This document shows positions 3,433 through 62,300 of a DNA stretch of 64,000 bases, one piece after another; the stretch's first letter is position 1; each line of letters starts with the position of its first letter. Made by a program: the position numbers and the translations under genes. The DNA comes from Sulfurimonadaceae bacterium (GTDB taxonomy: Bacteria; Campylobacterota; Campylobacteria; Campylobacterales; Sulfurimonadaceae), in NCBI GenBank assembly GCA_016744905.1, contig JADGDM010000006.1, positions 1-64,000 on the forward strand. The letters run 5' to 3'. The notes under the pieces are model-generated. The model was not told the DNA's origin, made no database searches, and was given only the letters and a program-made list of their open reading frames with translations.

Positions 3433-3957
3433 ATGAACGAACTTAAATATATAAAACATTATCCTCAAAGCACACTCACTCAAGTGCATGCTTTGATTGA
3501 TTCAGGAAACCTCAGCGCCCATCTACAAAAAAAATACCCTCAGGCACACACTTTTAAAACTGATAAAAATCTCTTCAATTATACCCTTGATCTAAAAAAT
3601 GAATTTATGAAAAAATCAAATCCCCTCTCAAAAGTGATTTATGATGGAAAAATAAATGTTATTCATAATGCCTTAGGCACACATCATTTTATTTCTCGTG
3701 TTCAAGGGGGGAAATTGAAGGCTAAAAATGAGATTCGGGTTGCATCGATATTTAAAAATGTACCTGAAGAATTTTTGCGCATGATTGTGGTGCACGAGTT
3801 GGCACATTTTAAAGAAAAAGAGCACAATAAGGCTTTTTATAAACTATGCGTATATATGGAGAGTGATTATCATCAGTTGGAGTTTGATTTAAGACTCTAC
3901 CTCACCCATATGGACATATATGGGAAGATAGAGCAGTGGAATAAAACGACTGCTTAA
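3433..3957 (+). CDS. YgjP-like zinc metallopeptidase (DUF45)
   Basis: This 174-residue protein carries the metallopeptidase motif HELAH, followed by a third ligand region EHNKAFYKL (about residues 122-140), as in YgjP/DUF45 (M48-like) proteins. The catalytic residues are present. No signal peptide is seen, so it is probably cytoplasmic; the substrate is unknown. The gene lacks a Shine-Dalgarno sequence. A TACACT box ends 7 nt before the ATG, so a leaderless transcript is possible. It converges with the arginine kinase gene, overlapping its 3' end by 4 nt. Confidence 0.85.
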   Translation: MNELKYIKHYPQSTLTQVHALIDSGNLSAHLQKKYPQAHTFKTDKNLFNYTLDLKNEFMKKSNPLSKVIYDGKINVIHNALGTHHFISRVQGGKLKAKNEIRVASIFKNVPEEFLRMIVVHELAHFKEKEHNKAFYKLCVYMESDYHQLEFDLRLYLTHMDIYGKIEQWNKTTA

Positions 3958-4982
3958 AGTGCTTTTTCCGCAGCGATAAGTGCGACCACACCATCATACA
4001 TATCTTGAACAGCCTCAACTTCAGTGATGCCTAAACGACGGCGATTACTGATGTCGTAGATACCGCCTTCACTCTCAGAGTGTTCTCCATGGATACCACG
4101 AATTTGAAGATAGTATTTATCTGTAATGGCTTTAAACGCTTCCATATCAGCCGCGAGTTTTGGTAGAGCAATATGCACACTCGCACGCATCGCCGTTCCA
4201 AGATTTGTTGGACAACTGGTGATAAACCCTAGGTGATCACTATAAGAAAATGGTACCTTTGTTTCGATACTTTTAATAGCACTCACCAGACGGGTAAATA
4301 CCTCTTTAATATCTCCACCTTGTTGCATAGAGATAATACGAAGTTGATCCTCTTCATTCACCCATACTAAGAAAGTTTTGTCATTATTATGATAAATTCC
4401 ACGACCCTCTGGCCAGTTACGATTTAGTCCAACAGCGTCAAGAAAACGATCTCCCTCTTTAAATAAAAAGTGATCTTTAATCAGATCATCTTGAACCTCT
4501 TTTGACATCCCTAAAAGTGGATAATAATTTCCACTAAGTTCACCCTCAAGCGTTTTAAGTCCTGCCACAACACTGGCCTCAACATGATCGCGCTGCTCTT
4601 TAGAAATAGCGGGTCCTAGAGGCATATTGTCCATATTACGTCCCACGCGAATACGCGTGGAGACGATATATTTTCCTTCTGGATCGGGGTTTGGTGCATT
4701 TAAATCATCTGGATTAAGATTACTTTTGTGGGCATCTTGTTTTGTAAATCCATGATACTCTTCAATGATAGGGTCTAAAAGTGCACCAAAAAGCGCATAC
4801 GATTCTTTATCTCCCGCATACACACCAATCCCACTGTCTAAGTTACGCACACCTGAGTTAATGGCTTGTTCTAAACTAAAACCATTGCTTGTCTTTTTAT
4901 CTTTAAGTGCTTCAAAAACCTCTAGGCTTAAGTGTTTACTGAGTAACGATTTACAATCTTGTGGAAATTCTGGATAGTTCAT
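3954..4982 (-). CDS. Arginine kinase (phosphagen kinase)
   Basis: This 342-residue protein is a complete ATP:guanidino phosphotransferase of the animal arginine-kinase type, not McsB. It shows the substrate-specificity loop DSGIGVY (residues 49-55), the ATP-phosphate arginines in STRIRVGR (108-115), EEDQLRIISMQ (210-220), the reactive Cys in CPTNLGT (Cys257), and RGIHGEHSESEGG (295-307), which holds the residues equivalent to Limulus Arg309 and Glu314. It should make phosphoarginine, a high-energy phosphate store, in the cytoplasm. It is the last gene of an argB-orf-kinase operon, starting 1 nt after the upstream stop. Scattered occurrence in bacteria suggests ancient transfer from a eukaryote; creatine or taurocyamine as substrate is less likely. 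Confidence 0.9.
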   Translation of the reverse strand: MNYPEFPQDCKSLLSKHLSLEVFEALKDKKTSNGFSLEQAINSGVRNLDSGIGVYAGDKESYALFGALLDPIIEEYHGFTKQDAHKSNLNPDDLNAPNPDPEGKYIVSTRIRVGRNMDNMPLGPAISKEQRDHVEASVVAGLKTLEGELSGNYYPLLGMSKEVQDDLIKDHFLFKEGDRFLDAVGLNRNWPEGRGIYHNNDKTFLVWVNEEDQLRIISMQQGGDIKEVFTRLVSAIKSIETKVPFSYSDHLGFITSCPTNLGTAMRASVHIALPKLAADMEAFKAITDKYYLQIRGIHGEHSESEGGIYDISNRRRLGITEVEAVQDMYDGVVALIAAEKAL

Positions 4983-5234
4983 TTAGTTGTCCTTTGTTTT
5001 AAAATTAAGTGTCAATTTACCTTGAGTACCAAGCTCACCTATCGTCTTCCAACGATCATGACAGTAGGATTTAAAATCATCATACTGTTCCGTATAAAGT
5101 TCCATCTGCTCTATTACTTCAAGCGCGCGGGTCAATTTTTTAAAATTTTCCAACTCGCCTTCGATAATTGCTTCGCATTGTTTAAGTAACAGAGGCGAAA
5201 CTGGCATCTTCATTTTTGGTACTTCGCCCATCAT
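4983..5234 (-). CDS. Hypothetical protein between argB and arginine kinase
   Basis: This 83-residue protein is not recognised. It is predicted mostly helical, with a central acidic/amphipathic stretch (KQCEAIIEGELENFKK, ALEVIEQMELYTEQYDDF) and no signal peptide or membrane helix. Its ATG overlaps the argB stop by 4 nt, and its stop abuts the arginine kinase ATG, so it is translated as part of the same operon. The position suggests a role linked to arginine or phosphoarginine metabolism, but nothing in the sequence proves this. Confidence 0.75.
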   Translation of the reverse strand: MMGEVPKMKMPVSPLLLKQCEAIIEGELENFKKLTRALEVIEQMELYTEQYDDFKSYCHDRWKTIGELGTQGKLTLNFKTKDN

Positions 5235-6079
5235 TTAATCACCGTTCCAACCCCTTCGCTGGTAAATATTTCCAATAACAACGCATGTTCAATACGTCCA
5301 TCAATAATATGCGCTTTTTTTACACCACCATTGACCGCATGTAAACAGGCATCTACTTTAGGAATCATGCCACCCGCAATCGTCCCTTTCTCTTTATAGC
5401 GATCAATCTCATCTTTTGTAAGGGTATGAATAAGCTCATTTTCACAATCCAGTACCCCAGCAGTATCTGTCATAAAAATAATTTTATGTGCTTTTAAACT
5501 GGCTGCAATATGGCCTGCGGCGATATCAGCATTGATATTAAATCCTGGATGCCCACTAATCGACGCCGTAGCAATAGGTGCGATCACAGGGATAAATTTT
5601 TCATCAATAAGATCATGAATAATCTTTGGATTGACCTCGGTAATATCACCCACATAACCATATTTTGCCATATCAACAGGTTGTGCTTTCAGCATTGAGG
5701 CATCTTTACCACTGACACCAATCGCTTTCGCACCATGTTCATTTAGTAGCGCGCTGATCTCTTTGTTGATACTACCCGAGAGTACCATTTCAACTACTTC
5801 CATGACTTGTGCATCAGTGACTCTCAGACCATCAATAAAGTGGCTATCCACCTGAAGTCTATCCAGCATTTTTCCAATAGCAGAACCGCCACCATGAACA
5901 ATAACAGGCTTAATACCTACAAGATACATCAAGACAATATCACGAGCAAACTTATCTTTTAACTCAGGAGAGGTTTGTGCAGATCCACCATATTTGATAA
6001 CAAAGATCTCATTGCTATAACGTTTGATGTAGGGTAAGGCTTCAAGAAGTATTTTGGCTTGATCTATTTTTTCTTTCAT
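5231..6079 (-). CDS. argB: Acetylglutamate kinase
   Basis: This 282-residue protein is of normal length for N-acetylglutamate kinase, the second enzyme of arginine biosynthesis. Visible motifs are the N-terminal VIKYGGSAQ, the glycine-rich VIVHGGGSAIGKML, the substrate region (NINADIAAGHIAASL) and the C-terminal GGMIPKVDACLHAVNGGV. It acts in the cytoplasm, where it phosphorylates N-acetylglutamate with ATP and is commonly feedback-inhibited by arginine. It is the first gene of the operon with orf83 and the arginine kinase. Confidence 0.95.
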   Translation of the reverse strand: MKEKIDQAKILLEALPYIKRYSNEIFVIKYGGSAQTSPELKDKFARDIVLMYLVGIKPVIVHGGGSAIGKMLDRLQVDSHFIDGLRVTDAQVMEVVEMVLSGSINKEISALLNEHGAKAIGVSGKDASMLKAQPVDMAKYGYVGDITEVNPKIIHDLIDEKFIPVIAPIATASISGHPGFNINADIAAGHIAASLKAHKIIFMTDTAGVLDCENELIHTLTKDEIDRYKEKGTIAGGMIPKVDACLHAVNGGVKKAHIIDGRIEHALLLEIFTSEGVGTVIK

Positions 6080-6189
6080 ATTTTCTCTTTGCTTGAAAAT
6101 TCAAACGCCATACAGAAGTATCACGCTGAAAGTATTGTACTAGAGAGTAATGTAAGAGTTGTGAAATATTTGTAAAATGTATAATTATC

Positions 6190-8061
6190 TTAAGAAGAAG
6201 GAAACCTAAGTGTAAAACATGCACCATTTCTTTCATTATGCACAGAGATACTTCCTGAAAGCTTCTGCTCCATAATCAACTGTGACATATAAAGTCCTAT
6301 ACCTGTTCCGCCTATTTCGGCCTTAGTACTGATATGGGGCTCAAATATCTGAGAGAGGATACTTTGATCTACACCACCCCCATTGTCACAAAAGAGTAGG
6401 ACATTTTCACCATTTTCTTGTGATAAGGAGATATGGATACTTCTGTCTGAATTTTTACTTTCACACAGGGCATCTTTAGCGTTGTTGAGCAGATTTAAAA
6501 GTACTTGAGCAAATTCACTTTCTGATTTTTGTGCAAAAAATATCCCCTCTTTGGCATCTAACTGCACATCTATATGGTGATAATCTAAACCCGCAGAGAC
6601 AATATTAATCGCTTGACGCAGTGCAAAAACAACATCAAAACGTTTATCATTTTCGTTCGGTGTAAAAAAGAGTCTGAAATCATCTATCGTTTGCGACATA
6701 TATTTAATCATTTGATTGCCATGTGTCATCTTTTTTTCTAAATAGACCGCATCAAGTTCACCAAATGCCTGAGCAGACTCAAGGTTCATAAAGATGCCTC
6801 CGAGCTGTGCAAGAGGCTGTCTCCATTGATGGGCGATATGTCCTATCATCTCTCCCATTGAAGCCAATCTTGATTGTTGCATCATCAGATATTCTTGCTC
6901 TTGGCGCAGACGTATTTCCTCTCTTATTTCCTCTTGAAGTTGCTGTTTCATCACCTCATGTTCTGTCACATCTTTGGCGATAAGCTTAAGATAACGGCTA
7001 TTAATATTTTTTGAAAGTGTTCCCGAAAATTCATAATTTCGAGCATCCACCAGTGCAGAAAAATTCTCAATCTGTCCACTTTTTTCAAGTGCGCTATACA
7101 GACCTATCCAGGTCTCTCCAAAAAGTGCTTGAGGAGACTGCTCTAACAAACCCTCTCCAAAATTCTCTTTGGCTTTACGGTTCATCCAATGTATTACTTG
7201 ATGATTAGGCACATCAAATATCTCAATAATCGCCTCAGGAAGCAGATCCATAATCTCCTTGGCGTGACGCAGTTTAATCTCAAGCATCCGAGCAACATTG
7301 CCCTTGATATGCTTAAATATATCTCTATTGGTTAACAACGCACGCATTGCTCCATCAGTATCGCAAACCAAAACACGTCTGATATTACTATGACGCATCA
7401 GCTCAATCACCTCGGTTATCGCCTCTTGACTTGAAACAGAAGAGACAGGTGAAGACATCAAAGTCTGCACCTCTTGTGCAAGATCAAGACCATGATAACC
7501 CGCAGAGAGAATATCTTTTTCTGTCACAATTCCTATGGCTTTAAGCGCACTATCCGTGACAATAACAGAGCCTATTTTGGCCTGATGCATCAATTCACGC
7601 ACGTCATTTAAGGTCTTCCCCTGCTCTACTGAAATCACACGTGCATCATGCTCTAGCAGATCCGCTACTTTCAAGTCAACCTTATACACATCCTCTTCTA
7701 AAAAACCAAAAAGATCCTCTTGTAAAACCATTCCACAATACAGACCCGCATCATCAATCAACACCAAGCGGCGGATATTATTGCTCACCACCAAATCAAA
7801 GGCGGATTCAACTGGTCTACTCTGATTGGCTGTAATCACTGGATGTATTGATAAAGGCATTACCGGTTGTGAAAAGTCCGTCAACTCTGCAAAGTGAGCA
7901 AGAACCAAACCCTCTGTGACGATACCTACAGGACGTCCCTCTTCAAGCAGCACCACGGAACCATTTTTGTTTTCCAACATAGAAGCCATGGCCTCCCCCA
8001 GTGTGGCACTCGAAGCGATCGAAAATCCAAGCGTATGCGCAATAGAAGATAAATCCCTCAC
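6190..8061 (-). CDS. Soluble histidine kinase with four CBS motifs and PAS
   Basis: This 623-residue protein has no membrane segment. Residues about 5-255 hold four CBS repeats (two Bateman modules; for example MSSPVSSVSSQEAITEV then NIRRVLV). A PAS-like domain follows at about 265-370. A short coiled coil leads to the H box AHQWRQPL, with the phosphorylated His near residue 409. The ATPase domain has LLNLLNNAKDAL, DNGGGVD and GTGIGLYMSQL. CBS domains usually bind adenosine nucleotides, so an energy or nucleotide signal is plausible. The GTG start overlaps the TGA of the response regulator gene (GTGA), which marks translational coupling. Confidence 0.88.
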   Translation of the reverse strand: MRDLSSIAHTLGFSIASSATLGEAMASMLENKNGSVVLLEEGRPVGIVTEGLVLAHFAELTDFSQPVMPLSIHPVITANQSRPVESAFDLVVSNNIRRLVLIDDAGLYCGMVLQEDLFGFLEEDVYKVDLKVADLLEHDARVISVEQGKTLNDVRELMHQAKIGSVIVTDSALKAIGIVTEKDILSAGYHGLDLAQEVQTLMSSPVSSVSSQEAITEVIELMRHSNIRRVLVCDTDGAMRALLTNRDIFKHIKGNVARMLEIKLRHAKEIMDLLPEAIIEIFDVPNHQVIHWMNRKAKENFGEGLLEQSPQALFGETWIGLYSALEKSGQIENFSALVDARNYEFSGTLSKNINSRYLKLIAKDVTEHEVMKQQLQEEIREEIRLRQEQEYLMMQQSRLASMGEMIGHIAHQWRQPLAQLGGIFMNLESAQAFGELDAVYLEKKMTHGNQMIKYMSQTIDDFRLFFTPNENDKRFDVVFALRQAINIVSAGLDYHHIDVQLDAKEGIFFAQKSESEFAQVLLNLLNNAKDALCESKNSDRSIHISLSQENGENVLLFCDNGGGVDQSILSQIFEPHISTKAEIGGTGIGLYMSQLIMEQKLSGSISVHNERNGACFTLRFPSS

Positions 8062-8771
8062 CGCTTCTCCTTCTCATAAAGTTTGTAACCAATGGCAGCA
8101 ATATTTTTTATCAATTCACTGTGGCTCTTTTTACGTAAGTTGCGTATCTGAGCGCGCAGGGCATCTTTGCTCATCACACTCTCTGGCCAGACTTCATACT
8201 GCAAGGCTTCATAAGAGAGTGTTTTTCCAACATTTGCGATAAAGAACTCCAAAAGCTGCATCTCTTTACGTCTTAAGTGCACTATCTCATCTTCATAAAT
8301 CAGCTCTTTACGTACCATCTCATAACAAAAACCCGCCCCTAAATCAATCTCTGTCTCTACCAATAAGGTTCGATCTTTGTACTCATCAGCTGCTTTACTC
8401 AGCGCCTCCATTAACTCGGTACTGGTCACAGGCTTAACAAGGTAGCGCGTCAGCTCCAACTCAACAGCGGTTAATAAAAACTCTTTGTCTGTATAGGCCG
8501 TTGAGATTATAATACGGGTGTCATGATCACTTAAGCGGAGTTCTCTGGCAAAGTCTATACCACTTTTACCCGGTAGATTGATGTCAAGTAATATAATATC
8601 AGGATTGATTTTTTCATAAAGTTCTTGACCTATTTCTGCGCTTTGAGCAAGATGAAGGTTAGAGGTATAGCGTCTTAAAAATTCAGCCAAATATCCTTGT
8701 ATCTCAGCATCATCTTCTACGTATAATAGGGTTAGATTTTTAATTTTTGAAGCGAAGAGATGGTGATCCAT
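8058..8771 (-). CDS. OmpR-like response regulator
   Basis: This 237-residue protein has a receiver domain (residues 12-128) with the phosphoacceptor in LLDINLPGKSG (Asp63), the conserved Thr91 and Lys113 (YLVKPV). A winged-helix DNA-binding domain follows (about residues 140-235, ending in IAAIGYKLYEK). It is the cognate regulator of the CBS kinase encoded just downstream. The leader can form a hairpin TATTTAC/GTAAATA close to the AAAGG ribosome site, which may be an attenuator between this gene and the DUF234 gene upstream. Confidence 0.9.
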   Translation of the reverse strand: MDHHLFASKIKNLTLLYVEDDAEIQGYLAEFLRRYTSNLHLAQSAEIGQELYEKINPDIILLDINLPGKSGIDFARELRLSDHDTRIIISTAYTDKEFLLTAVELELTRYLVKPVTSTELMEALSKAADEYKDRTLLVETEIDLGAGFCYEMVRKELIYEDEIVHLRRKEMQLLEFFIANVGKTLSYEALQYEVWPESVMSKDALRAQIRNLRKKSHSELIKNIAAIGYKLYEKEKR

Positions 8772-56016: not shown

Positions 56017-56769
56017 ATGTTTTCAGCGCACAAAGAACGTATTGTTACAGGCACTGCCTTAGTTTTGGCAGTTTTAGCCATCGGTTTTATTGATAACTTT
56101 TTTCTTATGTGGGCTTTTTTAGGTCTCACCTACATCATTGCTTTTCATGAAGCAAACAAACTCTACGGTATTGAAAACAACAACTCTCTTTACACTTACG
56201 CTGCCATTCTTTGGATTATCGCTGCATTTTATCCTTATGGAGATGACCTTTTTATTCTTGCAGGCATCATATTTGCCAGTATTTTGGTCTACAAGCAAGA
56301 GCTTGAGTGGAAATATATGCTTCCATTTATCTATCCAACAGCCGGTATGCTGTTTATCCTAACCTTGTATCAAGAGTACGGTGTACTATCACTTCTATGG
56401 CTACTTGCTGTTGTAGCACTCACTGATGTAGGCGCCTATGTAACAGGTAAAAGCTTTGGTAAAACCTCATTTAGTATCACCAGTCCCAACAAAACTTTAG
56501 AGGGTGTTGCGGGTGGTATTTTCATCGCCACAGTGGGTGGTTTTCTAGTGGGTCTGAGTATTGTCAGTGCGCCAGTTGCCCTTGTTATCTCATTTTTTAC
56601 CGCAACGCTTTCTGTCTTTGGTGATCTGTTTGAATCTTACCTCAAACGTAAAGCAGACGTCAAAGATTCAGGTGCTATTTTACCTGGACACGGTGGTGTT
56701 CTTGACCGCATTGATGGATATCTTTTTGGTGCCATTGTGATGTTGGTTCTACTTCGAGGACTTGTTTAA
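56017..56769 (+). CDS. cdsA: Phosphatidate cytidylyltransferase
   Basis: This 250-residue membrane protein has about seven helices and the CDP-diglyceride synthase signature near the C-terminus (SYLKRKADVKDSGAILPGHG, GVLDRIDGYLFG). It makes CDP-diacylglycerol, precursor of all phospholipids. It is the first gene of the envelope operon; dxr starts 2 nt downstream. Confidence 0.95.
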   Translation: MFSAHKERIVTGTALVLAVLAIGFIDNFFLMWAFLGLTYIIAFHEANKLYGIENNNSLYTYAAILWIIAAFYPYGDDLFILAGIIFASILVYKQELEWKYMLPFIYPTAGMLFILTLYQEYGVLSLLWLLAVVALTDVGAYVTGKSFGKTSFSITSPNKTLEGVAGGIFIATVGGFLVGLSIVSAPVALVISFFTATLSVFGDLFESYLKRKADVKDSGAILPGHGGVLDRIDGYLFGAIVMLVLLRGLV

Positions 56770-57845: not shown

Positions 57846-58393
57846 GCAGTTTAAGAGAGCAAAAAGTTTTACTACTACACGGCTGGGGAGGAAGTGATAA
57901 CCCTCACTGGCAAGCATGGTTAGGTAGCGAAATCGTAAAAGATTACGGCACCGTTGCTTTTCCTCTTTTAGACAATCCTCATTTCCCTTCTAAAAATAGA
58001 TGGATGAAACAGTTTAAACAACTGCTCAAAGAGTTTCAACCTGATGTAGTTATCTGTCATTCTCTTGCCAATACAACCTGGTTCCATCTATGTAATGAAG
58101 GCGAGATAGACGAGGTTAAACGACTCCTTTTAGTTGCTCCTCCACGCTTAAATTTAGAACTTGATACCATTGCTACATTCTTCCCTGTTAAAGTTCCCTC
58201 TAAACTTTTTGCAAAAGAGATAACCTTGGTAACTTCAGATAATGACCCCTACATGACTGCTCAAGAAGCAAGCGCGCTACAAAAATCTTTAAATGTTGAG
58301 ATGAAAGTACTACATAACGCAGGGCATATCAATGAAGAAGGTGGTTTTGGAGAGTGGCCATGGGTACTCTCATGGCTGAAAAAAGCTTCATGA
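57842..58393 (+). CDS. RBBP9/YdeN-like serine hydrolase
   Basis: This 183-residue alpha/beta hydrolase matches the RBBP9/YdeN family: LLLHGWGGSDNPHWQAWL at the N-terminus, nucleophile in ICHSLANTTW (Ser in place of the usual GHSLG context), SDNDPYM acid and NAGHINEEGGFGEWP His. It is cytoplasmic; the substrate is unknown, possibly a lipid ester given its operon. It overlaps dxr and mlaA by 4 nt each. Confidence 0.87.
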   Translation: MSSLREQKVLLLHGWGGSDNPHWQAWLGSEIVKDYGTVAFPLLDNPHFPSKNRWMKQFKQLLKEFQPDVVICHSLANTTWFHLCNEGEIDEVKRLLLVAPPRLNLELDTIATFFPVKVPSKLFAKEITLVTSDNDPYMTAQEASALQKSLNVEMKVLHNAGHINEEGGFGEWPWVLSWLKKAS

Positions 58394-59220
58394 AGAGATA
58401 TCTCACCCCATTTCTATTTTTATTATTAATACTCTCATTACAAACCTCTCTCTACGCACAAGAGCCTCCAACTGACCTGAACAATACAGCAGTAGTCTCT
58501 GAGATACAAGAAGAGCCAGAAGAAGAGTTTGATGATGACTTTGGCGATGATTTTGATGATTTTGAAGAGGAAGAGGAAGAGCTTAAAGATGATACCTTTG
58601 ATCCCTTAAGTGGCTATAACCGTTTTATGACCTCCTTCAACAAGGGTCTATATACCTATTTTCTTAATCCTGTGCTTATTAAACCTTACAAATTTATTTT
58701 GCCTAAACCTGTCCAAGTCTCTATCAACAACTTCTTTTTTAATCTCTACTATCCCGTCAGCGCTGTCAACACTGTTTTACAGCTCAAATTTAAAGCAACT
58801 GCAACAGAAACAGGACGATTTGCCATCAACTCCACACTAGGGATTCTTGGTCTTTTCGACCCTGCTGAAAAGTGGTTCGGAATTGAGGCTCATGTAGAAG
58901 ACTTTGGACAGACACTGGGTCACTATGGAGTGGGTTCAGGGTTTCACATAGTGTTACCTTTCTTCGGTCCTACCAATCTTCGTGATTTAAGTGGTGATTT
59001 TCTTGACTTTTATGTTAATCCTATCTATTATGTTGATGTAAGAAAATATAATTTGGTTCAAAACACCTATCAATCATGGGCGGTCATTGGATATAAAGAG
59101 TTCAACGATCTTGCTGTATTTAACAAAGAGTATCAATCTATGCTTGACGACGCTGTTGATCTCTATCTCTACCAACGTGAAACTTATGAACAAAACAGAA
59201 TTAAAGATATTGAGGAATAA
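58390..59220 (+). CDS. mlaA: MlaA/VacJ-family lipid transport protein
   Basis: This 276-residue protein has a signal peptide (MKRYLTPFLFLLLILSLQTS). Unlike E. coli MlaA, it has no lipobox Cys. Residues 38-68 are an acidic tract (EEEFDDDFGDDFDDFEEE). The MlaA domain follows (DPLSGYNRFMTSFNKGLYTY, NNFFFNLYYPVSAVNTVLQ, FAINSTLGILGLFDPA, YGVGSGFHIVLPFFGP). MlaA removes misplaced phospholipids from the outer leaflet and passes them to MlaC. ATG 58390 overlaps the hydrolase stop; the longer frame from 58354 would bury the signal peptide. mlaC starts 3 nt later. Confidence 0.9.
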   Translation: MKRYLTPFLFLLLILSLQTSLYAQEPPTDLNNTAVVSEIQEEPEEEFDDDFGDDFDDFEEEEEELKDDTFDPLSGYNRFMTSFNKGLYTYFLNPVLIKPYKFILPKPVQVSINNFFFNLYYPVSAVNTVLQLKFKATATETGRFAINSTLGILGLFDPAEKWFGIEAHVEDFGQTLGHYGVGSGFHIVLPFFGPTNLRDLSGDFLDFYVNPIYYVDVRKYNLVQNTYQSWAVIGYKEFNDLAVFNKEYQSMLDDAVDLYLYQRETYEQNRIKDIEE

Positions 59221-59223
59221 CTT

Positions 59224-59805
59224 ATGAAAAAAAACTTTTTGCACATTCTTTTAGTACTATTGATGTTAAGCCCACTCTCCCTTTTTGCACTTACTGAGGG
59301 CAGTATTAAAGCCGATGTTCGTGTCGCTGTTGATGAGATTCAAAATATCAGTAAAAACAGTGCTCTCGATATGGAAGGTAAACGTCATGCCTTAGACAAA
59401 GTCATAGATCCTATTTTTGATTTTACACTGATGGGAAAACTAAGCCTAGGTAAGACAGCATGGAAGGCTCTCTCGAAAGAAGAGCGTAAAGAGTTTGTAA
59501 AACTTTTTACCCAAAGAACAAAAAATGCCTACCTTTCAAAGTTAGACATCTATAAAGATGAAAAAATCACTGTGCTAGAACCAAAAAAGGTCAAAAAACG
59601 TATCCATATCTCGACCTATCTTATACTAGAGGGTGAGCGAAAAGAGTTACTTTATAAACTCTATAAATCAAAGAAAGATGGCTGGAAAATTTATGATGTT
59701 GACGTCATCGGCGTAAGCTTAGTTCAGACCAATCGTTCTCAATTTGATGCAATCATTAAAAAAAGCTCCGTTCAAGGACTCCTTGAAAAACTACGTGAGA
59801 AGTAA
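59224..59805 (+). CDS. mlaC: MlaC/Ttg2D-family periplasmic phospholipid carrier
   Basis: This 193-residue protein has a signal peptide (MKKNFLHILLVLLMLSPLSL) and the Ttg2/MlaC fold (VIDPIFDFTLMGKLSLGKTA, KEEFVKLF-like helix, GWKIYDVDVIGVSLVQTNR, SQFDAIIKK). It ferries phospholipid across the periplasm. It is distinctly basic: a hand count of the mature protein gives about 36 Lys/Arg against 25 Asp/Glu. A basic patch KKVKKR lies mid-protein. It is placed between MlaA and an RND permease instead of the usual MlaFEDB ABC genes. Confidence 0.9.
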   Translation: MKKNFLHILLVLLMLSPLSLFALTEGSIKADVRVAVDEIQNISKNSALDMEGKRHALDKVIDPIFDFTLMGKLSLGKTAWKALSKEERKEFVKLFTQRTKNAYLSKLDIYKDEKITVLEPKKVKKRIHISTYLILEGERKELLYKLYKSKKDGWKIYDVDVIGVSLVQTNRSQFDAIIKKSSVQGLLEKLREK

Positions 59806-62300
59806 TGCTTAAACAGGTCTACTCTCGCTTTATACTGCGTTATCCTAAACTGGTTATCGCATTTATCTTAATACTCACTGCTTTGATGGGAACCCAAGCC
59901 TTAAAACTCAAGGTGGATGCCTCCGCAGAAACACTTATTTTACATGATGATGTAGACCTTGTTTATACCCGTTTAATCAATAAACGCTACAGAACAACTG
60001 ACTATTTGGTTGTCACGTATAGTCCATTTAAACCCCTTCTTTCCCAAGAGATAGTGACTGATCTTACACAATTGAGTCAAGAACTTTTAGAGGTACAAGA
60101 TGTAGAATCCATCACCTCTATCTTAAATGTTCCTCTATTACAGAGCCCTCCTAAACCACTTACCGAACTCCTTAAAGATATTCCAGCTATTAATAAAGGC
60201 GGTGTTGACCTCCAGCTTGCAGCAGAAGAGTTTAAGGCAAATCCTCTTTATAGTTCAAACTTGGTTAATAAAGACCTAAGCACTACAGCCCTACTTGTCA
60301 ACTTTAAATATGATCATAAATTTTATGCCATGCTTGATGATATCAATCACTTGCGTGATCAAAAAAAACGATCTAAAGAGGAGAAACTCCATCTGAAGAG
60401 CTTGACCAATGAGTTTAAAGCCTACAGAGATATCCTTCGAATGCAAATGCATCAGAAAATTATTGATACCAGAAAAATACTAAATGCACATCAAGCACAT
60501 GCGGAACTGTTCCTTGGTGGGGCAGATATGATTGCAGATGATATGACAGGTTTTGTTGAACATGATCTTAAAACCTATGGTAGTATCGTTTTGTTACTGC
60601 TTATTTTTGTCTTATATTACGTATTTAGACGTATCCGATGGGTATTTTTACCTGTTTTAGTGAGTGCACTTTCTATATTAATGACCATAGGCTTTATGGG
60701 CCTAAATGAATGGGAAATCACGGTTATCTCTTCAAACTTTATTGCCTTGCAACTTATTTTAACTATCTCTATTATTATTCATCTTATTGTGCGTTATATC
60801 GAGTTGGCAAAAGAGTCACCGCAAGCAGACCAGTACGAACTTGTTTTACATACCACGCTATCCATGTCTAAACCGACATTTTTTGCGGTACTGACAACCA
60901 TTGCAGGTTTTGCATCTTTAATGCTCTCAGATATTAAACCCATCAGCGCACTAGGAATGATGATGAGTGTTGGTGTGAGTATCTCCTTAGTGACCACCTA
61001 TATTATCTTTCCAACTACCTCTATGTTAATGAAACGAACCCAGTACAATGAAGCGCACGAATCACACTACCCTTATATGCAATACATCTCAGATTTTATC
61101 GAAACACGCGGAAAAATCATCCTCTTTATCACGCTTCTCTTGGTGGCTTTTGCACTGAGTGGACGATCTAAACTTTTTGTAGAAAATAGCTTTATCAACT
61201 ACTTTAAACCCTCTACTGAGATTTATAAAGGAATGTTGGTTATTGATAAAGACTTAGGGGGAACCACCTCTTTAGACGTTAGTATCGACCTTCCTCCTGT
61301 AGAAGTAGACACCGCAGCGAGTAGTGATGAGGAAGAGGATGACGACTTTGATGAATTTGATGATGAACTCGAAGCACAGTCTTCACAAAAACAGTACTGG
61401 TTCACCAGTGAGCGTATGGAAGTTATCTCAAAAGTGCATAACTATTTAGAAAGTATTGAAGGTGTTGGAAAAGTTATCTCACTTAATACCCTTCTTGAAG
61501 TAGGTAAAACTTTAAATGAGGGAGAGTCGCTTGATAATTTTGAGCTTGCCCTACTGTATAAAGAGTTGCCCCAAGAGTTTGCAAACATAATTTTAAAACC
61601 TTATATTGATATTGAAAACAATCAGGTACGCTTTGCGATGCGTATTATTGACTCTTATCCTGATCTGCGTAGAAATGATTTGATTAAAGAGATCAAGCGC
61701 GCCTTGGTTGAAGATTATAATATAGAAGCGTCTCATGTGCACCTCTCAGGTATGATGGTCTTGTATAACAACATGCTTCAAAGTCTTTTTAGTTCACAAG
61801 TTGAGACCTTAGGCGCAATGGGCTTACTTCTCTTTGTGATGTTTATATTCCTTTTTCGCTCTATTTTTGTTGCCCTTATTGCGATGGTTACCAATCTTAT
61901 TCCTATTGGTATTGTTTTTGGATTTATGGGATGGTTCCATATTCCACTAGATATGATGACAATTACTATTGCGGCCATTAGTATGGGGATTGCTGTGGAC
62001 AATAGTATCCACTATCTTTACCGTTTTAGAAAACTATTACTCCTAGGAAACAGTTATATCGAATCGATGCATCAAGCACATGAAAGTATCGGCTACGCTA
62101 TGGTTTATACTTCAGCAACCGTTATCATAGGCTTTTTGATACTGCTTATTTCTGCGTTTATCCCTACCATCTATTTTGGTCTATTAACCGCTCTAACGAT
62201 GTTCTCTTCTATTACATTGACCCTCGTACTGTTACCTAAAATGCTTATTATGTTTAAGCCATTTAAGTGTGAGACTTTAGACAAACCCATCTTGAAGTAA
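59805..62300 (+). CDS. RND/MMPL-family lipid exporter-like permease
   Basis: This 831-residue inner-membrane protein has the two-fold MMPL/HpnN-like layout. A helix at about 14-33 is followed by a large periplasmic domain, five helices near 265-410 and a helix near 440. A second periplasmic domain follows, then five helices near 665-820 (AISMGIAVDNSIHYLYRF). An acidic tract DEEEDDDFDEFDDE lies in the second periplasmic domain (about residues 508-522) and resembles that of MlaA. By operon position it probably replaces the MlaFEDB ABC complex as partner of MlaC. It starts at TAATG, overlapping the mlaC stop. Confidence 0.88.
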   Translation: MLKQVYSRFILRYPKLVIAFILILTALMGTQALKLKVDASAETLILHDDVDLVYTRLINKRYRTTDYLVVTYSPFKPLLSQEIVTDLTQLSQELLEVQDVESITSILNVPLLQSPPKPLTELLKDIPAINKGGVDLQLAAEEFKANPLYSSNLVNKDLSTTALLVNFKYDHKFYAMLDDINHLRDQKKRSKEEKLHLKSLTNEFKAYRDILRMQMHQKIIDTRKILNAHQAHAELFLGGADMIADDMTGFVEHDLKTYGSIVLLLLIFVLYYVFRRIRWVFLPVLVSALSILMTIGFMGLNEWEITVISSNFIALQLILTISIIIHLIVRYIELAKESPQADQYELVLHTTLSMSKPTFFAVLTTIAGFASLMLSDIKPISALGMMMSVGVSISLVTTYIIFPTTSMLMKRTQYNEAHESHYPYMQYISDFIETRGKIILFITLLLVAFALSGRSKLFVENSFINYFKPSTEIYKGMLVIDKDLGGTTSLDVSIDLPPVEVDTAASSDEEEDDDFDEFDDELEAQSSQKQYWFTSERMEVISKVHNYLESIEGVGKVISLNTLLEVGKTLNEGESLDNFELALLYKELPQEFANIILKPYIDIENNQVRFAMRIIDSYPDLRRNDLIKEIKRALVEDYNIEASHVHLSGMMVLYNNMLQSLFSSQVETLGAMGLLLFVMFIFLFRSIFVALIAMVTNLIPIGIVFGFMGWFHIPLDMMTITIAAISMGIAVDNSIHYLYRFRKLLLLGNSYIESMHQAHESIGYAMVYTSATVIIGFLILLISAFIPTIYFGLLTALTMFSSITLTLVLLPKMLIMFKPFKCETLDKPILK

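Follow-up and report, generated by a model that had tools for sequence, protein, structure and literature searches.

How does one soluble lipid carrier find its partner at each of two membranes? The question is raised by three adjacent genes, mlaA, mlaC and rnd, in a 64,000-nucleotide stretch of DNA (the window) from a Sulfurimonadaceae bacterium (contig JADGDM010000006.1). An initial annotation of the window noted acidic tracts in MlaA and in the RND permease encoded on either side of a basic MlaC, and proposed that both membrane proteins dock the same carrier by the same acidic bait. The sequences and coordinates of the two tracts, DDDFGDDFDDF in MlaA and DDDFDEFDDE in the second periplasmic domain of the RND protein, were confirmed in our analysis.

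Genes and features of the cluster

56017..56769, + strand: cdsA-like CTP transferase of phospholipid synthesis, upstream of the cluster and given as context only (PF01148, E 1.6e-50)
58390..59220, + strand: mlaA, 276 amino acids (PF04333, E 2.8e-62; domain of the AF2 model matches 5nup, Z 20.8)
58507..58593, + strand: MlaA acidic tract, residues 40-68, EEPEEEFDDDFGDDFDDFEEEEEELKDD region (sequence; AF2)
58540..58554, + strand: MlaA tract core FGDDF, residues 51-55 (consensus F-[DE]-[DE]-E-F)
59224..59805, + strand: mlaC, 193 amino acids, periplasmic lipid carrier (PF05494, E 8e-40; AF2 model matches 8dte, Z 21.2, and E. coli MlaC 5uwa, Z 19.3)
59584..59601, + strand: MlaC KKVKKR, residues 121-126 (sequence)
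59805..62300, + strand: rnd, 831 amino acids, MmpL/HpnN-type RND transporter (PF03176; AF2)
61305..61385, + strand: RND disordered insert in the second periplasmic domain, residues 501-527 (AF2)
61347..61370, + strand: RND tract core FDEFDDEL, residues 515-522 (64 orthologues)

MlaA, whose start codon is the ATG at 58390, and MlaC are placed in their families by these Pfam matches and by fold matches to MlaA structures (Z 20.8) and to MlaC/Ttg2D structures (Z 19-21). The RND model (AF2 pLDDT 85.2, pTM 0.79) has MmpL4/5, HpnN and NPC1 as its closest folds. Its MMPL signature (PF03176) and its matches to MmpL5 (Z 45.5) and HpnN (Z 42.4) identify an MmpL/HAE3 fold, with a TIGR00921 HAE3 match (3e-45) that lies under that model's cut-off. 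A proton-relay Asp in both RND repeats (TM4 and TM10) is taken as defining. Among 64 orthologues, D732 in TM10 is invariant, and TM4 has an invariant H326 and no Asp. The N-terminus of the transporter is expected to lie on the cytoplasmic side.

MlaC and the RND protein resemble the hopanoid-associated pair of MlaC-like HpnM and RND protein HpnN: HpnM is the best NCBIfam match of MlaC (3.2e-23), the RND protein matches HpnN (7e-31), and HpnN structures align with the RND model over about 645 residues (Z 42). However, the scores fall far under the family cut-offs, so that the RND protein is not an HpnN equivalog by TIGR03480 (106.9 versus 751.85 bits) or NF052374 (82.2 versus 1100), and here the cluster includes mlaA.

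The RND transporter as proposed partner of MlaC

Because MlaC and the RND protein are found in the identical 215 of 397 genomes of the class, we propose that the transporter is the inner-membrane partner of MlaC, in place of MlaFEDB. A short MlaD does not track MlaC: PF02470 matches occur in 19 of 21 relatives, with or without MlaC, and one genome (G393) carries MlaC and the RND protein with no MlaD match. In the genome studied here PF02470 matches only two long multi-MCE proteins (884 and 898 amino acids); judged by this family, it has no single-MCE MlaD and no MlaFEDB with such an MlaD to serve at the inner membrane.

The RND model also aligns with NPC1-type proteins of eukaryotes. In NPC1/NPC2 a soluble lipid carrier hands lipid to an RND-fold protein, which is the same idea, although the analogy is one of function only; we know of no MlaC-like carrier and no acidic tags in that system. 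A review lists mlaA-mlaC and mlaDEF for Campylobacter, not the RND gene, and the literature that we found holds no experiment that pairs MlaC with such an RND. Campylobacterota and a number of other phyla would gain a Mla pathway with an RND partner that is undescribed in that literature.

A shared core in the two acidic tracts

MlaA consists of a signal peptide without a lipobox Cys, the acidic N-terminal tract and the membrane domain, with no C-terminal tail. DDDFGDDFDDF occupies residues 48-58 within a longer acidic stretch (about 40-68), which in the AF2 model is disordered up to residue 48 and has a predicted helix at 52-65. DDDFDEFDDE, residues 512-521 of the RND protein, lies inside the 501-527 insert, the sole internal stretch of the model with pLDDT below 50, where a helix is predicted at 516-524. 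Across 53 MlaA orthologues, position 51 is hydrophobic in 98%, D54 acidic in 100% and F55 hydrophobic in 100%; among the 64 RND orthologues, hydrophobic residues stand at F515 (97%), F518 (100%) and L522 (100%), and E521 is acidic in 63 of 64 (98%). The common core of both tracts is [FL]-x(1-3)-E-[FYL], near-invariant inside variable disordered segments.

Both tracts recur in place in Campylobacterota, SAR324, Desulfobacterota, Planctomycetota and Kiritimatiellia, and in both gene orders, mlaA-mlaC-rnd and mlaC-rnd-mlaA. The initial annotation had named absence of the tracts from orthologues with all three genes as evidence against its proposal, and instead both are kept across phyla. The tract is also present in RND proteins encoded away from mlaC. 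Loss of the transporter where none adjoins mlaC was considered and rejected, as each such genome has a tract-bearing orthologue (44-47%) elsewhere. None of six control MlaA proteins of other groups (E. coli and annotated plasmid records) has an N-terminal tract.

The basic character of MlaC, put at about +11 with KKVKKR, also stands for this protein, whose net charge (K+R-D-E) is +13 for the whole chain and +11 for the mature part, with KKVKKR at residues 121-126. Orthologue charges have a median of about +5 and range from -7 to +24 (with the mature part delimited roughly), with +4 in E. coli. What is conserved in MlaC is particular basic positions, not strong net basicity; R126, for example, is K or R in 90% of 81 sequences and Ile in E. 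coli. The trait under selection appears to be the E-F core with a hydrophobic residue two to four positions earlier, rather than bulk acidity set against a very basic MlaC. The proposal of one acidic bait on both partners thus survives in part: it gains from the co-conserved tracts, from the RND protein that tracks MlaC and from a match to E. coli chemistry (below), whereas strong basicity of the carrier is not general. The charge observation becomes a precise, testable motif, and a possible account of one-site capture at both membranes.

Proposed capture of MlaC

The tail helix of E. coli MlaA (I241/L245/I248 with D243/D244/D247) binds MlaC, with a KD of 57 uM alone, and the MlaD loop F118-E-D-P-E122-L123 engages MlaC at an overlapping cleft; with overlapping sites, the binding of MlaA and MlaD to MlaC is thought to be mutually exclusive (PMC10245069, PMC10719372, PMC11289387). 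The system described here is alike in its MlaA and MlaC families and in having one acidic-hydrophobic element per membrane partner, although capture of MlaC is proven there and inferred here. Moreover, FEDPEL of the MlaD loop resembles the core F-x-x-E-F/L of our tracts. The differences are that an RND protein replaces MlaFEDB at the inner membrane, that MlaA is without the lipobox Cys, that the MlaA bait is N-terminal rather than C-terminal, and that the two baits are nearly one motif. In E. coli MlaA, 11 residues precede DPL and the tail is ~29 residues long; here the arrangement is reversed. The E. coli-type C-terminal acidic tail helix is missing, and by comparison with E. coli almost every orthologue ends ~8 residues past the conserved core.

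E. coli already provides the precedent of acidic elements on both partners that capture MlaC in the manner of a bait, so the initial description of a new mechanism for Mla systems was too strong. What is new is the RND partner, the N-terminal MlaA bait, the near-identical motif on both partners, and a second instance of the design, in which both carrier and motif differ.

We consider it likely that a Mla-type shuttle operates in which the MlaA arm and the RND insert capture MlaC at one site by the same motif. MlaA would hold out a flexible arm just before its membrane domain, and the RND protein a flexible insert in its second periplasmic domain, both bearing the same acidic amphipathic helix with the core [FL]-x(1-3)-E-[FYL]. 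Each arm would fish for MlaC in the periplasm and fold onto one basic-hydrophobic cleft, so that the lipid pocket of the captured carrier meets either the MlaA channel or the RND protein. We infer that the tracts bind MlaC and that a single MlaC site receives both; such a site would admit one partner at a time, and MlaC would therefore shuttle. The cargo is presumed to be phospholipid. MlaA and the RND protein probably pass lipids to a common small carrier, and the near-identical acidic, phenylalanine-rich motif suggests a single type of hook for its capture at either membrane. With short peptides, the way in which such carriers locate their membrane partners becomes open to test.

Docking of MlaA and MlaC was modelled as one AF2 chain, a read-through of both genes (one frame, TAA read as Gly; 105 alignment rows). 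The domains are confident with no docked arrangement (pTM 0.55), and the MlaA tract helix has pLDDT 49-76. This is a weak test of docking because the MlaC signal peptide sits in the linker. A similar chain of MlaC and the RND protein would be unable to dock, given its short linker and the expected cytoplasmic position of the RND N-terminus.

A second carrier system with another motif

A second RND set in the same genome has a LolA-like carrier and a DUF1302 outer-membrane protein. Its outer-membrane protein and its RND both carry DDLxGFDDE, unlike the MlaA/RND motif, and since one motif is again found on both partners, the shared-motif design recurs. In a third RND/carrier/outer-membrane protein set the tract is missing from both partners. 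The operon architecture of the second set is that of AmeABCD from Castellaniella, which joins a DUF1302 outer-membrane protein, a DUF1329 protein of the LolA superfamily and an HAE3 RND in monoterpene tolerance, and whose authors propose that the periplasmic proteins are fusion proteins; the part of that description considered here reports no shared outer-membrane protein/RND motif (PMC6394551).

We regard it as evenly balanced whether such motifs are private address tags, each carrier reading one acidic motif on its outer-membrane protein and its RND, and different motifs keeping parallel systems apart. F-x-x-E-F would then be the tag for MlaC, and DDLxGFDDE, a predicted docking motif for a second, uncharacterised system, the tag for the LolA-like carrier.

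Both tracts might instead bind a partner other than MlaC, such as a porin, a peptidoglycan-bound or divisome protein, or be bridged to one another independently of MlaC, and so set MlaA opposite the RND protein. Flexible arms could bind any common partner, the read-through model resolved no MlaC docking, and the net charge of MlaC varies widely. However, the counterparts of both partners in E. coli engage MlaC itself through acidic-hydrophobic elements, and the second system pairs another shared motif with another carrier, which fits a motif read by the carrier rather than by a shared third protein. We find this reading unlikely.

Statistics of the tracts

It is very unlikely that these are acidic disordered linkers of a generic kind, serving as spacers or in solubility or cation binding, and alike merely because such linkers resemble one another in AT-rich genomes. 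Both segments are indeed predicted to be disordered, with variable lengths and flanks. A fixed-place acidic regular expression missed many true tracts, and a loose motif ([FLIMYV]-x2/3-[FY] with at least five D/E and at most one K/R in ~12 residues) was therefore used. Composition alone yields this motif in 21% of shuffled MlaA stretches and 32% of shuffled RND inserts. Nevertheless, it is present in 102 of 131 MlaA upstream stretches and 101 of 103 RND inserts, against 15 of 1871 (0.8%) 40-residue windows from other proteins of the same loci. The six other MlaA proteins have no N-terminal tract. The spacing of hydrophobic residues is helical in the RND tract (i+3, 171 observed versus 67 expected; i+5, 9 versus 53) and in the MlaA tract (i+4, 145 versus 87; i+2, 40 versus 105). 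The core is fixed across several phyla (acidic in 98-100%, hydrophobic in 97-100%), and two systems carry two distinct motifs. The tracts are more than chance low complexity.

A role in cis, with each tract as plug or lid of its own MlaA channel or RND periplasmic cleft until displaced by arriving MlaC, could draw on tethered acidic amphipathic helices beside a lipid channel (predicted at low confidence), but we give it very little credence, as it requires the same motif to suit two unrelated pockets and a single shared receptor is simpler.

Within genomes, the MlaA and RND tracts are more similar than under random pairing (z 6.8, free permutation). Among close relatives most of this excess is gone (p 0.01 to 0.7 by threshold and direction), and for that reason we do not claim that the two co-evolve in lock-step. 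Across the whole genome, [DE]F[DE]x[DE]F occurs at eight sites, one of them in MlaA, compared with six in the reversed control; the other sites, mostly in cytoplasmic-type proteins, look like chance.

Conserved acidic tracts in MlaA and an RND protein

The outer-membrane protein MlaA, the soluble periplasmic lipid carrier MlaC and an RND protein are encoded head-to-tail, preceded by a cdsA-like gene, dxr and a serine hydrolase gene and followed by a methyltransferase gene and tsaD.

58390-59220, + strand: mlaA (Pfam MlaA, 2.8e-62)
59224-59805, + strand: mlaC (Pfam MlaC, 8e-40)
59805-62300, + strand: rnd (Pfam MMPL, 1.6e-18)

The initial annotation described a basic MlaC between two partners bearing matching acidic tracts, and these are present at MlaA residues 48-58 (DDDFGDDFDDF) and RND residues 512-521 (DDDFDEFDDE); mature MlaC indeed carries a net charge of +11, a value that is not constant across orthologues. 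The MlaA signal peptide (58390-58460) is of the plain type with no lipobox Cys. Such a Cys is present in MlaA of many relatives (for example ‘SGCSSK’ at loci L072-L080), and from these sequences MlaA lipidation seems variable inside the family.

Orthologous clusters, collected at the level of the family and of the class and from a named set of genomes, retain both tracts in practically every case, confirming an observation that is far more general than first claimed. The acidic Phe element lies a few residues ahead of the conserved DPLxGYNR start in MlaA and directly before an invariant YW[FY] in the RND protein. These clusters, ordered either mlaA-mlaC-rnd or mlaC-rnd-mlaA, occur in Campylobacterota, SAR324/Lambdaproteobacteria, Desulfobacterota, Planctomycetota (including Scalindua) and Kiritimatiellia, as named in public records, the majority being metagenome bins.

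By a fixed definition the element is found in 102 of 131 MlaA stretches and 101 of 103 RND inserts, against a background of 0.8% of windows in the other proteins of these loci; when the tracts themselves are shuffled with their composition preserved, 21% (MlaA) and 32% (RND) match. As judged from sequence, the tracts are more than chance. Among 64 aligned RND proteins, positions F515, F518 and L522 are hydrophobic in 97%, 100% and 100%, and E521 is acidic in 98%; among 53 aligned MlaA proteins, F51 and F55 are hydrophobic in 98% and 100%, and D54 is acidic in 100% (Glu in 50 of the 53). Because of these percentages, the common core can be written [FL]-x(1-3)-E-[FYL]. The likeness of the two tracts within a genome is mostly accounted for by kinship.

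The spacing of the hydrophobic residues fits a single helix face, and AlphaFold2 places helices on the tract residues (MlaA 52-65 and RND 516-524) amid otherwise disordered stretches. Residues 501-527 are the sole internal stretch of the RND model with pLDDT <50.

The RND protein as the probable partner of MlaC

Among 397 genomes of the class, searches with the MlaC model and with the RND protein matched the identical 215 genomes. Where the RND gene does not adjoin mlaC, a tract-bearing orthologue (44-47% identical) is encoded elsewhere in that genome. The distribution of MlaD does not parallel that of MlaC: many relatives that lack MlaC have MlaD, one genome (G393) has MlaC and the RND protein with no MlaD match, and the only MCE proteins of the present genome are two long multi-MCE proteins. 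The RND protein is the probable partner of MlaC. Some genomes of the family (G043, G046 and G162) have two RND orthologues, one adjoining mlaC and the other elsewhere, and in some genomes a fused glycoside hydrolase 17/glycosyltransferase 2 gene occupies the RND place beside mlaC (locus L073, 4457-7168).

MmpL4/5 and SecDF give the best alignments to the RND model, and HpnN and NPC1-type proteins align with it as well, which places the protein in the RND superfamily near the lipid-moving branch. A relay-type Asp is found in the second repeat only (Asp732 in TM10, 61959-62027, invariant in 64 orthologues). In TM4 (60747-60797) an invariant His326 replaces it in the same orthologues, so that any proton coupling may be unlike that in MmpL proteins.

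A proposed shared bait for MlaC

In E. coli, the acidic C-terminal tail helix of MlaA and a loop of MlaD occupy overlapping sites on MlaC (PMC10719372, PMC10245069, PMC11289387). The MlaD loop, F118-E-D-P-E-L123, is similar to the core of the RND-type system. RND-type MlaA has no C-terminal tail of the E. coli kind, stopping ~8 residues past the conserved core, and instead has an N-terminal arm, whereas just 11 residues precede DPLEGFNR in the E. coli protein. None of six MlaA proteins representing other groups, namely Escherichia, Serratia, Cupriavidus, Halomonas, Caballeronia and Fusobacterium, has the N-terminal tract. MlaC residues K72, K77, K106, R126, K145 and R171 are 90-100% conserved in the RND-type system, while their E. 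coli counterparts are non-basic.

The same sort of bait would have moved to the opposite end of MlaA and be present on the RND protein too. Since both partners carry it, they would capture MlaC in turn through one site. This simplest reading, whose common bait the initial annotation had proposed, is plausible, and conservation together with the E. coli precedent supports it well, short of proof: the sequences show the tracts, their conservation and spacing and the co-occurrence of MlaC with the RND protein, and from these we infer binding of the tracts to MlaC, the single common site and the cargo. An AlphaFold2 read-through chain, with MlaA and MlaC folded as one polypeptide, gave domains matching MlaA and MlaC structures (Z about 20) and pLDDT 87.7, but docking was not obtained (pTM 0.55). 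The mechanism had been called new; its principle is partly known already, whereas the form seen here is new.

In Campylobacter jejuni, mlaA and mlaC occur together and vesicle release rises after mlaA loss, according to a review. A search of open-access papers found no account of this RND protein as part of Mla, tentatively suggesting that this component is new.

Recurrence with LolA-like carriers

The proposed bait design recurs in a second set in the same genome (locus L219, contig C28, 1-12000).

3867-6308: RND protein (PF03176)
6311-7099: LolA-like carrier (PF17131)
7062-8606: DUF1302 outer-membrane protein

Here the N-terminus of the outer-membrane protein (DDLDDAMGGFDDE...MSGFDDE) and the first periplasmic domain of the RND protein (SVDNFSEGFEDDF) have a common acidic Gly-Phe motif. 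In relatives both partners share DDLxGFDDE, in one to three copies downstream of the signal peptide of the outer-membrane protein and as an element of this type in the first periplasmic domain of the RND protein. Within the family, [LFM]xGF occurs in the tracts of 30/30 second-set outer-membrane proteins and 14/19 RND proteins (16 under a looser rule), compared with 4/131 MlaA and 2/103 Mla-type RND proteins. Motif identity goes with the carrier in this one bacterial family, which is what recognition of the tag by the carrier would predict. A third set (locus L221, contig C29, 4618-9035), comprising a LolA-like carrier, an outer-membrane protein and an RND protein of 768 aa, lacks the tract in both membrane partners. 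Elsewhere on this contig (locus L220, about 58500-61000, - strand), with no adjoining LolA-like gene, an RND protein of 807 aa has DDDLSGLDDFDSDEGE in its first periplasmic domain and is followed by an OprD-like porin gene. The architecture of the second set resembles that of AmeABCD of Castellaniella (PMC6394551).
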